The translations under genes and the position numbers were made by a program. 64,000 nucleotides of DNA from Limnohabitans sp. GTDB lineage: Bacteria > Pseudomonadota > Gammaproteobacteria > Burkholderiales > Burkholderiaceae_C. Below are positions 5,505 through 54,050 of this stretch, piece by piece (position 1 is the first letter of the stretch; every line of letters begins with the position of its first letter). The stretch is taken from assembly GCA_024642215.1 (NCBI GenBank), contig JAHEBO010000011.1, positions 5,616 to 69,615 of the forward strand, read 5' to 3'. The notes beneath the pieces were generated by a model. That model was given only the letters and a program-made list of their open reading frames with translations. It was not told where the DNA came from and did no database searches.

Positions 5505-6325
5505 AGCGCGCATTCAAGCATCCCAGCTTTGTGGCAGGCGCCATTTTGGTCACGCTCTTGGTGGTGAGCGCCATCGTTTCTTTGTTCTGGTCACCCTACC
5601 CTGTGGGCGACATCGACATTCCGAACAAGCTGGCCAAAGCCAGTGCGCAACATTGGTTTGGCACAGACAGCTTGGGCCGCGACATTGCATCCTTACTGTT
5701 GGTGGGCAGTCAAAACTCTTTGTTGGTCGGTTTCATCGCTGTGGGCATTGGCCTGGGTTTTGGCGTACCACTGGGCCTTTTGGCCTCTGCCAAACGCGGC
5801 TGGGTAGAAGAAGTGGTGATGCGCGCCGCCGACTTTACGTTTGCATTCCCTGCTTTGCTCTCGGCCATTTTGCTCACGTCCATTTATGGCCCAGGCTTGG
5901 TGGTCAGCATCACGGCCATTGGCATTTTCAACATTCCTGTGTTTGCACGCATCACGCGTGGTGCCGCTAACGCCGTGTGGTCACGCGATTACACCTTGGC
6001 CGCTAGAGCCGCCGGCAAAACCAAATGGGCCATCACGTGGGAGCATGTATTGCCCAATGTGGCCAGCGTGCTGATTGTGCAAGCCACCGTGCAATTTGCC
6101 ATCGCCATCTTGGCCGAAGCGGCTTTGTCTTATTTGGGCTTGGGCACGCAGCCACCCAATCCCAGCTGGGGTCGCATGCTGAACGAAGCGCAATCGCAAA
6201 TGTTCCAAGCCCCCATGTTGGCGGTGTACCCAGGCGTGGCCATTGCCTTGGCCGTGTTGGGACTGAACTTGATGGGCGACGGTCTGCGTGATCTGCTCGA
6301 TCCACGTTTGTCGAGGGCGCGATAA
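5501..6325 (+). CDS. Dipeptide/oligopeptide ABC transporter permease (DppC-like)
   Basis: HWFGTDSLGRDIASLLLVGSQNSLLVG; 4-bp overlap with the upstream gene. Confidence 0.9.
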   Translation: MKRAFKHPSFVAGAILVTLLVVSAIVSLFWSPYPVGDIDIPNKLAKASAQHWFGTDSLGRDIASLLLVGSQNSLLVGFIAVGIGLGFGVPLGLLASAKRGWVEEVVMRAADFTFAFPALLSAILLTSIYGPGLVVSITAIGIFNIPVFARITRGAANAVWSRDYTLAARAAGKTKWAITWEHVLPNVASVLIVQATVQFAIAILAEAALSYLGLGTQPPNPSWGRMLNEAQSQMFQAPMLAVYPGVAIALAVLGLNLMGDGLRDLLDPRLSRAR

Positions 6326-50005: not shown

Positions 50006-51130
50006 TTATTTTTGACGACGAGCCAAGACGGCTTTTGACAACGTGGCCAAAACCTTCTCGCTATCAGGCCATCCAATGCAAGCGTCGGTGATGCTTTGCG
50101 CATACTTCAGTGCACTGGGATCGTCTTTGCCAGGGCTGAACTTTTGCGCACCGCCCTCCAAATGACTTTCCACCATCACGCCAAAAATTTGACGTGAGCC
50201 TTTGCTGATTTGCGCTGAAATGTCGTGGGTCACGTCCACTTGGCGCTCGTGCTGCTTGCTGCTGTTGGCGTGGCTGCAATCGATCATCAAGGTGGGCTTG
50301 AGTTTGGCTGCCGTCAAATCTTTGCACGCCGCATTCACGCTGTCTTCGTCGTAATTGGGTGCTTTGCCGCCACGCAAAATGACGTGGCAATCGGGGTTGC
50401 CTTGTGTTTGCACAATCGCCACTTGTCCGTTTTTGTGCACCGACAAGAAGTGGTGACCGCGTTCTGCCGCTTGAATGGCATCGGTGGCAATTTTGATGTT
50501 GCCATCGGTGCCATTTTTAAAACCAATGGGCGCTGACAAACCAGAGGCCAATTCGCGGTGCACTTGGCTCTCGGTGGTGCGTGCGCCAATGGCGCCCCAG
50601 CTGATCAAGTCGCCGATGTACTGGGGTGAAATCACGTCCAAGAACTCACTGCCAGCAGGCAAACCTTGGCGATTGATCTCAATCAGCAGTTGACGTGCAA
50701 TGCGCAAACCTTCGTCGATGCGGAAGCTTTCGTCCAAGTAAGGGTCGTTGATCAACCCCTTCCAGCCCACCGTGGTGCGAGGTTTTTCGAAATAAACACG
50801 CATCACAATTTCCAAGGTGTCTTGGTATTTGTCACGAAGCGGCTTCAGGCGGCGAGCGTAATCCAAGGCTGCGGCAGGATCGTGAATAGAGCAAGGGCCA
50901 ATCACCACCAGCAAGCGATCATCCTTGCCTTCCATGATGTTGTGAATCTTGCGACGCGTCTGTGCAATCAGTGTTTCAACTGCGGTTCCCGTGATCGGGA
51001 AAAAGCGCATCAAATGTTCTGGTGGCGGCAACACGGTGATGTCCTTGATGCGTTCGTCATCAGTCTGCCCTGTGCGGTCTGCGGGGTTCGCATAACGAGG
51101 CTCCGAATTGGCTTTGGCTTTGGTGTTCAT
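50006..51130 (-). CDS. aroG: 3-deoxy-7-phosphoheptulonate synthase, class I
   Basis: LLVVIGPCSIHDPAAALDYA; VYFEKPRTTVGWKGLINDP; LMIDCSHANSSKQ. Confidence 0.96.
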   Translation of the reverse strand: MNTKAKANSEPRYANPADRTGQTDDERIKDITVLPPPEHLMRFFPITGTAVETLIAQTRRKIHNIMEGKDDRLLVVIGPCSIHDPAAALDYARRLKPLRDKYQDTLEIVMRVYFEKPRTTVGWKGLINDPYLDESFRIDEGLRIARQLLIEINRQGLPAGSEFLDVISPQYIGDLISWGAIGARTTESQVHRELASGLSAPIGFKNGTDGNIKIATDAIQAAERGHHFLSVHKNGQVAIVQTQGNPDCHVILRGGKAPNYDEDSVNAACKDLTAAKLKPTLMIDCSHANSSKQHERQVDVTHDISAQISKGSRQIFGVMVESHLEGGAQKFSPGKDDPSALKYAQSITDACIGWPDSEKVLATLSKAVLARRQK

Positions 51131-51174
51131 CGTGTGCTCCTGTTCAAAAATTAAAAAACTGAATGGGTGAAATG

Positions 51175-51209
51175 CAAAAAAAAACCGCCGGGGGTTGAGT
51201 CCGGCGGTT
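51175..51209 (-). terminator. Attenuator terminator in the aroG leader
   Basis: Minus strand AACCGCCGG-actcaaccc-CCGGCGGTT followed by a U-tract; 9-bp perfect stem upstream of aroG. Confidence 0.9.
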
Positions 51210-51228
51210 GGTAGAGGGGTTCAGTGAC

Positions 51229-51303
51229 TTATGCGCTGGCCTCTCGTCCGCCTAGGACTGAGAATGCAAAATAAAAGCTAAAAAAGCTAAAGCGCGAGGT
51301 CAT
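51229..51303 (-). CDS. Putative Phe-rich leader peptide (attenuation) upstream of aroG: MTSRFSFFSFYFAFSVLGGREASA
   Basis: 24-codon ORF with 6 Phe and 1 Tyr within codons 5-14, directly before the attenuator hairpin; no clear SD. Confidence 0.75.
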   Translation of the reverse strand: MTSRFSFFSFYFAFSVLGGREASA

Positions 51304-51364: not shown

Positions 51365-52825
51365 TTAAGCGGTGCCGCCCACCGTCAAACCTTCAATGCG
51401 CAGCGTGGGCTGGCCCACACCCACAGGCACGCTTTGCCCCTCTTTACCGCACACACCGACACCTGAATCCAGACGCATGTCGTTGCCAATCATGCTGACC
51501 TGTTTGAGGCACTCTGGGCCGCTGCCCACCAAGGTGGCACCCTTCACAGGGTATTGAATTTTGCCGTTTTCAACCCAATAAGCTTCGCTGGCCGAGAACA
51601 CAAATTTGCCGCTGGTGATGTCCACTTGGCCACCGCCAAAATTGGTGGCGTACAAGCCTTTCTTGATGCTGGCCACAATTTCCTCGGGCGCTTTGTCGCC
51701 GCCCAACATGTACGTGTTGGTCATGCGCGGCATGGGAATGTGCGCATAGCTTTCACGGCGGCCATTGCCAGTGGGCTTGACACCCATCAAGCGGGCATTC
51801 ATGGCGTCTTGGATGTAGCCCTTCAAAATGCCGTCTTCAATCAGCACATTGCGCTGGCTAGGGCAGCCTTCATCGTCCACATTCAAGGAGCCGCGGCGGT
51901 CAGAAATGGTGCCATCGTCTAAAACTGTGACGCCTTTGGCGGCCACGCGTTTGCCGATCATGCCGCTGAACGCACTGGAGCCTTTGCGATTGAAGTCGCC
52001 CTCCAAACCATGTCCAATGGCCTCGTGCAACAACACGCCTGGCCAGCCTGGACCCAAGACCACAGTCATCACGCCAGCCGGCGCTGGGCGTGCATCCAAA
52101 TTGGTGAGGGCCGCATGCACTGCGTCATCGACGTAAGCATTGACCATGGCGTCGTCGAAATAAGCCAAACCAAAGCGGCCGCCGCCGCCGCCACTGCCAA
52201 CTTCACGTCGACCGTTTTGCTCGGCAATGACTGTGACCGACAAACGCACCAAAGGGCGCACATCGGCGGCCAAGGTGCCATCGGCACGGGCCACCATGAC
52301 CACATCGTATTCACTGGCCAAGCCGGCCATCACTTGCACCACGCGGGGGTCTTTGGCGCGGGCCAATTGCTCGACCTTTTCCAGCAACTGCACCTTGTCT
52401 GTGCTGTTGAGCGTGCCCATGGGATCGAGTGAAGGATACAGCGAACGAATGCCCGCAATTTTGCGTGCGGGCACTTTGGCTTTTTTGTTTTGATGGGCTT
52501 GCGCAATGGCGCGCACTGTTTGGGCAGCGTCCATCAAAGAAGCCTCAGAAATGTCATCTGAATAGGCAAAGGCCGTTTTTTCACCGGCCACTGCTCGCAC
52601 GCCCACACCTTGGTCAATGCTGAAACTGCCTGTTTTGACGATGCCCTCTTCCAAGCTCCAGCCTTCGGCGCGGGTGTATTGAAAATACAAATCGGCGTCG
52701 TCCACTTTGTGCGCTTTGATGGCACTCAAAGCTTTGGCCAAGTGGGTTTCGTCCAAGCCGAAGGGCTCGAGCAACAATGACCTGGCCGTGGCCAAGCGTT
52801 CAATGGTAGGTTCGCGTGAAATCAT
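51365..52825 (-). CDS. tldD: Metalloprotease TldD
   Basis: GWPGVLLHEAIGHGLEGDFNRKGSSAFSG; GDKAPEEIVASIKKGLYATNFGGGQVD; internal ATG start. Confidence 0.95.
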   Translation of the reverse strand: MISREPTIERLATARSLLLEPFGLDETHLAKALSAIKAHKVDDADLYFQYTRAEGWSLEEGIVKTGSFSIDQGVGVRAVAGEKTAFAYSDDISEASLMDAAQTVRAIAQAHQNKKAKVPARKIAGIRSLYPSLDPMGTLNSTDKVQLLEKVEQLARAKDPRVVQVMAGLASEYDVVMVARADGTLAADVRPLVRLSVTVIAEQNGRREVGSGGGGGRFGLAYFDDAMVNAYVDDAVHAALTNLDARPAPAGVMTVVLGPGWPGVLLHEAIGHGLEGDFNRKGSSAFSGMIGKRVAAKGVTVLDDGTISDRRGSLNVDDEGCPSQRNVLIEDGILKGYIQDAMNARLMGVKPTGNGRRESYAHIPMPRMTNTYMLGGDKAPEEIVASIKKGLYATNFGGGQVDITSGKFVFSASEAYWVENGKIQYPVKGATLVGSGPECLKQVSMIGNDMRLDSGVGVCGKEGQSVPVGVGQPTLRIEGLTVGGTA

Positions 52826-52895
52826 GCTGCCATTGTAGGCAAGCTCCGAAGGCCCTGCTGAACAGCGGACAGCAGGCCTTTCTTTTGAGCTGCGC

Positions 52896-54050
52896 TTAGG
52901 TTTGCACCAAGCGCTTGGCCTTGGCAATCGACATCAAAATACCCAAACCCAGCCCCAAGGTGACCATGGCCGTGCCGCCATAACTGATGAAGGGCAAAGG
53001 CACCCCCACCACGGGCAGGATGCCACTGACCATGCCCATGTTGACAAAGGCATAGGTGAAGAAAATCATGCTGACGCTACCGGCCAACAGGCGCGTGAAC
53101 AAAGAAGGCGCTTCCTTGGCAATCACCAAGCCGCGAAACACCAAAAAGAAAAAGCCGGTGATCAACAGGAGTGTGCCCAACAAACCAAACTCTTCAGAAA
53201 AAGCTGCAAATATAAAGTCGGTGGTGCGCTCGGGAATGAATTCCAAATGGGTTTGGGTGCCTTGCATAAAGCCCTTGCCCCAAAAGCCACCGGAACCAAT
53301 GGCAATCATGCCTTGAATGATGTGAAAGCCCTTGCCCAAAGGGTCTCGCGCGGGGTCGAGCAGGGTGCAAACGCGTTGCCGTTGGTACTCGTGCAGTACT
53401 TTCCAATCGACACCCTCGGCGCACAATTGCGCCTCAAAAGCCACCAGCAACATCAAGCCCATCAAACCCAGAAGAACGGGTGGCAAGATCAGACGCCAGC
53501 TTAAGCCTGCAAAAAACAGCACGGCCACACCTGTGCTCAGAACCAACAACGCCGTTCCCAAGTCGGGCTGCCGCATGATCAGCCCCACGGGCAGCATCAA
53601 CAAAAGGCCCGCCACGGCAAAGTCCAATGGTCGCAGTTGACCTTCGCGCTTTTGAAACCACCAAGACAACATCAGGGGCATGGCAATTTTGAGAATTTCG
53701 CTAGGCTGAATGACCACGCCCACATTGAGCCAACGCCTGGCACCCTTCTTGGTAATGCCAAAGATGGCCACGGCAATCAGCAGCAACACACCCACCGTGT
53801 AAATGGGCACGGCCAAGCTCATGAGCCGTTGTGGAGGGATTTGCGCCACGACAAACATGATGCTGCCCGCAATCAGCATGTTGCGACCATGGTCGACAAA
53901 GCGCGTGCCGTGGTCGTAGCCCGATGAATACATGATCAACATGCCCGCACAGGCCAGCACAAAGACCGCAAAGGCCAAAGGGCCGTCGAATCCTTCAAAC
54001 AAAAACAGGATGCGAGACGACCAGCTGGGTTTTTCAATGACACGGGACAT
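52896..54050 (-). CDS. rodA: Rod shape-determining protein RodA
   Basis: SEDS-family sequence; GKGFMQGTQTHLEFIPERTTDFIFAAFSEEFGLLG; PFISYGGTAMVTLGLGLGILMSI. Confidence 0.95.
   Translation of the reverse strand: MSRVIEKPSWSSRILFLFEGFDGPLAFAVFVLACAGMLIMYSSGYDHGTRFVDHGRNMLIAGSIMFVVAQIPPQRLMSLAVPIYTVGVLLLIAVAIFGITKKGARRWLNVGVVIQPSEILKIAMPLMLSWWFQKREGQLRPLDFAVAGLLLMLPVGLIMRQPDLGTALLVLSTGVAVLFFAGLSWRLILPPVLLGLMGLMLLVAFEAQLCAEGVDWKVLHEYQRQRVCTLLDPARDPLGKGFHIIQGMIAIGSGGFWGKGFMQGTQTHLEFIPERTTDFIFAAFSEEFGLLGTLLLITGFFFLVFRGLVIAKEAPSLFTRLLAGSVSMIFFTYAFVNMGMVSGILPVVGVPLPFISYGGTAMVTLGLGLGILMSIAKAKRLVQT

Follow-up and report, generated by a model that had tools for sequence, protein, structure and literature searches.

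The aroG gene in the Limnohabitans sp. window, the stretch of 64,000 nucleotides analysed here, is preceded by a short leader which we regard, with high confidence, as a ribosome-mediated transcription attenuator of that gene. This reading, put forward in a first-pass annotation of the same DNA, is strongly supported by the conservation of the leader and its terminator, by a codon-level constraint on the reading frame, by pairing retained across relatives and by the geometry of ribosome stalling. The parts of the leader are present and conserved, and its folding preference changes with the codon at which a ribosome is placed. The conservation of the element across the family suggests that it would switch on the aromatic entry step at a shortage of Phe, Tyr or, in most relatives, Trp. 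On balance, we favour the view that the leader represents an undescribed attenuator family, in which a leaderless ORF would read the charging of tRNA-Phe, tRNA-Tyr and tRNA-Trp and set the entry step of the shikimate pathway, throughout the window's own family and in a dozen or so further families of its order.

Layout of the aroG leader

The elements of the locus, all on the minus strand, are the following.

51365-52927, minus strand: tldD-like gene, the upstream neighbour, ending about 44 nt ahead of the -10 element
51320-51312, minus strand: extended -10 promoter element TGCTACATT, 8 nt ahead of the leader ATG, with no clear -35
51303-51229, minus strand: leader ORF MTSRFSFFSFYFAFSVLGGREASA, 24 codons, predicted to be leaderless
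51262-51291, minus strand: regulatory codons 5-14 (six Phe, one Tyr), with Ala where relatives have Trp
51260-51264, minus strand: region 1, UUCUC at Phe14-Ser15, pairing with GAGAG at 51245-51241
51240-51259, minus strand: region 2, AGUCCuaGGCGGacgAGAGG, 5' strand of the antiterminator
51198-51217, minus strand: region 3, CCUCUaccaaCCGCCGGACU, 3' strand of the antiterminator and 5' arm of the terminator
51183-51209, minus strand: terminator hairpin 3:4, stem AACCGCCGG (51209-51201) and CCGGCGGTT (51191-51183)
51176-51184, minus strand: U-tract of the terminator, nine T, read directly
51137-51141, minus strand: AGGAG, Shine-Dalgarno sequence of aroG, read directly
50006-51130, minus strand: aroG, the gene under putative control, encoding a class I DAHP synthase, with its ATG at 51130

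Direct reading confirmed the 24-codon ORF with six Phe and one Tyr in codons 5-14, as well as the intrinsic terminator with its U-tract in the aroG 5' UTR, whose stem has 9 bp. All coordinates of the first-pass annotation hold except the length of the gap between the leader stop and the aroG ATG, which is 98 nt and not 99 bp. A simple terminator scanner missed this terminator because its loop limit was 8 nt.

The aroG product matches NCBIfam TIGR00034 with 547 bits (cut-off 173), which identifies a class I DAHP synthase. No second AroG-type or class II DAHP synthase was found in the genome, which is 93% complete, and aroG is apparently its sole DAHP synthase; a second PF00793 match corresponds to a frame of 291 residues which, judged from its size, is probably KdsA. 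A search of the genome for further copies of the leader gave the aroG leader as the single significant match, and most of the inspected places with weaker matches show no comparable leader. One weak match (L196, contig C38 of genome G000, approximately 6015-6171, plus strand, E 0.9) contains a short aromatic ORF, MYFVFGVFFAYFWCAMPNDGFCAPN, close upstream of a long, amt-like frame resembling an ammonium transporter gene; it may be due to chance.

Distribution of the leader

Regions upstream of aroG were taken from 80 named genome contigs, including Limnohabitans, Hydrogenophaga, Polaromonas, Variovorax, Acidovorax, Comamonas, Rhodoferax, Ideonella, Aquabacterium and Roseateles, and from members of the window's own family, for the most part with a single genome for each genus. 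A Phe/Tyr-rich ORF starting with ATG behind an extended -10 element was found in 186 of the 190 family regions, and removal of duplicates left 177 distinct segments. Four regions lack a counted leader: L039 is cut by the contig end, L080 (Polynucleobacter) is truly without a leader, and L070 and L116 keep a shorter aromatic block or have no ATG in a suitable position. Of the family regions with a leader, all except one have the CCGCCGG/CCGGCGG terminator (186/187 rows, the window's own locus being included twice). Both the Phe codons and the stems, whose conservation the first-pass annotation had proposed to examine, are thus conserved among relatives, and we regard this as the decisive evidence that the element is real.

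Beyond the family, a covariance-model search detected the element in 50 of the 200 order genomes searched, each with a single copy, and nearly all inspected loci lie ahead of aroG. The leader is absent in many families of the order sample searched, and its distribution across the order, as read from these genomes, is therefore patchy. Among the class-level matches outside the order, those of one family are real and lie upstream of aroG (L228 and L229), while three other fetched matches lack aroG and look like chance hits. These two loci belong to a family from a different order within the class and show a similar leader, SFYFWYYFPKPLAEEG, with CTGGCGG/CCGCCAG regions and, in one of the two, CCGGCGG as region 2; the leader may have reached them by shared ancestry or by transfer.

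Close AroG relatives without a leader are found in L080 (73% identity) and in L258 (74%), which belongs to a genome of 1.7 Mb, and this suggests that the leader was lost in some small-genome lineages. In addition, several relatives without the leader (for example L264 and L267) retain the order tldD-aroG, so that gain or loss of the attenuator leaves synteny intact.

Coding constraint in the leader ORF

Shuffling the 190-nt upstream region 5000 times never produced six Phe in ten codons, and five were reached once. Aromatic codons amount to 83% in the ORF frame, against 26% and 17% in the other two frames. When the last four sensor codons are aligned at the hairpin, they encode Tyr in 73%, Phe in 97%, Trp in 82% and Phe in 90% of the relatives. 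A tandem arrangement of Tyr, Phe and Trp codons (YFWF) is found in most relatives; Phe and Tyr predominate in the four codons before this block. Substitutions within it are mostly exchanges among Phe, Tyr and Trp: position -3, where not Tyr, is mostly Phe, Trp or His, and position -1, where not Trp, is mostly Tyr or Phe. The Trp codon is lost in the window, where Ala takes its place, and in its nearest relatives.

The first-pass annotation had proposed sensing of tRNA-Phe. Its Phe codons are indeed conserved; however, the family-wide signal comprises Phe, Tyr and Trp, and each of these amino acids is probably sensed in the family, the Trp codon having been lost in the window. A narrower reading, in which only Phe charging is sensed and the Tyr and Trp codons are filler or reflect a constraint on the RNA sequence, draws on the facts that Phe is the commonest residue of the block, that the window and its nearest relatives dispense with Trp, and that UGG UUC UC adjoins region 1 and could be constrained as RNA. 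We consider it the less probable of the two, because replacements at positions -3 and -1 stay largely aromatic, leaders of other families keep mixed F/Y/W blocks although their RNA sequence is different, and the enzyme encoded by aroG makes the precursor of all three amino acids.

Codon choice was compared with the relatives' own aroG genes as a control. UUU accounts for 67% of the leader Phe codons and for 22% of those in the aroG genes of the same species. In the window's genome UUU is not rare (62 UUU against 33 UUC in five genes), so this argument from UUU preference is valid for the GC-rich relatives only. The last Phe codon, which lies within region 1, is UUC in 151 of the 177 segments, and the Phe codon two positions earlier is UUU in 162.

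In the second half of the ORF it is the nucleotides, not the peptide, that are conserved. GGCGG occurs in all three frames among relatives (151, 26 and 3 cases), and in one group a CGA to TGA change introduces a stop (GGCGGA-TGA) while the downstream GAGAG is retained; outside the aromatic block the peptide is thus not conserved. This bears on whether the leader peptide or the terminated leader RNA might act in trans, with attenuation as a secondary function. Such action has been proposed for the leaderless leader peptide peTrpL and the RNA rnTrpL of Sinorhizobium meliloti (PMC7298713). Here, the C-terminal half shifts frame and is shortened by stops with only its nucleotides kept, and we judge a primary role in trans very unlikely for this attenuator.

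Alternative RNA structures

The leader of the window folds with a z of -4.0, and its minimum free energy (MFE) fold contains the antiterminator, in agreement with the alternative structure expected from the first reading. The 10-bp pairing claimed there, CCGCCGGACT (51207-51198) with AGTCCtaGGCGG (51259-51248) in the leader ORF, is exact and has -12.8 kcal/mol by itself. However, the whole antiterminator extends to 15 bp (AGUCC/GGACU, GGCGG/CCGCC and the additional arm AGAGG/CCUCU), with -22.5 kcal/mol, compared with -16.4 kcal/mol for the terminator 3:4 and -12.2 kcal/mol for the 1:2 hairpin. The latter, which forms at the last Phe codon with an inner pairing of GUCC (51258-51255) with GGAC (51249-51246), competes with the antiterminator and overlaps the regulatory codons. 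Antiterminator and terminator are mutually exclusive, as both use region 3, and in most relatives region 2 reads CCGGCGG and so duplicates region 4.

RNAalifold on all alignment columns recovered the terminator only, because indels blur region 1 and the spacer; the structures were then named and counted individually. Across 86 relatives, pairing is kept in 94.0% (1:2), 95.8% (3:4) and 89.6% (2:3) of cells, and it drops to 16-60% of cells once the partners are slid as a control. Covariation, which had been suggested as a check on both stems, is modest within the family, since the bases of the stems are nearly invariant: the covariation score of 2:3 was reached by 62 of 500 shuffles of the family alignment. 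Outside the family, 15 of 41 loci have CCGCCAG in place of CCGCCGG as region 3 together with CTGGCGG as both region 2 and region 4, and this three-way compensation is present in several families. The association between the changes in regions 2 and 3 gives a Fisher p of 1e-9, a value not corrected for ancestry. Furthermore, the spacer carries a CUC element in 128 of 184 relatives, compared with 47 in shuffles, most often 8-13 nt before region 3.

No Rfam model, including the Phe leader, matches the element at the gathering threshold, and only chance-level sRNA matches were obtained (E up to 5). A riboswitch or T-box was discarded, as no Rfam match was obtained and the leader is taken up by the coding ORF.

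Folding with a stalled ribosome

Folding was calculated for 164 relatives with a ribosome placed at each codon, a leading edge of 12 nt and the transcript ending at region 3. The 2:3 pairing has a mean probability of 0.96-0.99 when the ribosome is stalled at any of the last four aromatic codons; one codon past the block it is 0.37, and beyond, where the ribosome covers region 2, it is about 0. The loss of pairing past the last Phe codon is partly due to the assumed 12-nt edge. With no ribosome on the transcript the 1:2 hairpin prevails, and the mean is only 0.30, the window's own value being 0.03. The aromatic block thus ends where a stall is no longer useful.

With a stalled ribosome, the terminator of the window is still dominant at equilibrium (P 0.99). 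Since the terminator is usually preferred at equilibrium once region 4 has been made, the switch must be kinetic, as it is in classical attenuators.

Promoter and putative leaderless start

The exact sequence TGCTACATT is found in 114 of 187 relatives counted, and the extended -10 element lies 6-8 nt from the leader ATG in 177 of 187 rows. No Shine-Dalgarno sequence precedes the leader ATG in the relatives' leader rows, and the base ahead of this ATG is C in 76%. On these three features, transcription is predicted to start at or within about 2 nt of the leader AUG, giving a leaderless ORF. The leaderless start suspected in the first-pass annotation, which saw no clear Shine-Dalgarno sequence, agrees with the conservation of the extended -10 element in the whole family. 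In some other families (L204, L206, L219 and L221) the promoter seems to lie farther upstream, so the leaderless trait is not universal.

The neighbourhood of tldD raises the question of whether the hairpin is a mere terminator of that gene, with the aroG promoter downstream and the Phe-rich ORF incidental. The short distance of about 44 nt between the tldD end and the -10 element, and the presence of tldD upstream in many relatives, would fit such an arrangement; nevertheless, the interval from tldD to the terminator contains a promoter and an ORF that are both conserved, the U-tract of L018 is only about 26 nt away from the aroG ATG, which leaves little room for a second promoter, and neither the aromatic coding constraint nor the conserved copy in region 2 would be explained. 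We give this arrangement almost no weight, and aroG attenuation is retained.

Proposed mechanism and comparison with known attenuators

We infer a leaderless start, translation of the ORF, stalling that depends on tRNA charging and an effect of this stalling on aroG. RNA polymerase would start at the leader ATG or immediately ahead of it, followed by a ribosome translating the leaderless, or nearly leaderless, ORF. When charged tRNA-Phe or tRNA-Tyr (or tRNA-Trp in most relatives) is scarce, the ribosome would pause in the aromatic block and mask or unfold region 1. Region 2 would stay free and form the 15-bp antiterminator with region 3 while region 4 is still to be synthesized, and transcription would read through into aroG. 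With charged tRNAs, the ribosome would advance over region 2, or region 1 would re-pair with region 2 once it has left; region 3 would then pair with region 4 and transcription would stop.

The enterobacterial pheA and pheST attenuators (pheL and pheM) combine a leader with Phe codons, a terminator and a mutually exclusive antiterminator. The aroG leader has in common with them the Phe codons, the intrinsic terminator, the exclusive antiterminator and the logic of stall position, but its target is DAHP synthase instead of chorismate mutase/prephenate dehydratase or Phe-tRNA synthetase; it also carries Tyr and usually Trp codons, lacks a Shine-Dalgarno sequence and is predicted to be leaderless. 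Sensing of several amino acids is known from the enterobacterial ilvGMEDA and thrABC leaders, whose enzymes serve several products; the aroG leader would share this property, whereas their branched-chain or Thr/Ile codons, sequence and targets are unrelated. In E. coli, aroG is controlled by TyrR repression and feedback inhibition. The enzyme and the matching of DAHP synthesis to aromatic amino acids are the same in both cases, but E. coli relies on a repressor and allostery, and the leader described here is a predicted sensor of tRNA charging. In the alphaproteobacterium S. meliloti, the 5' end of the trpL leader RNA was measured to be the ATG (PMC7298713). That leader and the aroG leader share an ORF at the 5' end of the RNA, ribosome-dependent attenuation and a target gene of the aromatic pathway; trpL, however, senses Trp only and acts on trpE(G), and its leaderless state is measured, while that of the aroG leader is predicted.

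No description of the aroG leader was found in the literature searched, although older attenuator surveys in subscription journals may hold a prediction of it. The mechanism is classical; as far as our tools show, the new aspects are the gene it targets, the probable integration of three aromatic amino acids by one leader, the predicted leaderless start and the occurrence throughout the family. A whole bacterial family apparently governs the entry step of the shikimate pathway through tRNA charging, with three amino acids apparently pooled in one leader and translation starting at or close to the 5' end of the RNA. This offers a natural system for asking how a leader with several amino acid inputs weighs them and how leaderless initiation keeps up with RNA polymerase, and it bears on the engineering of aromatic production in these bacteria.
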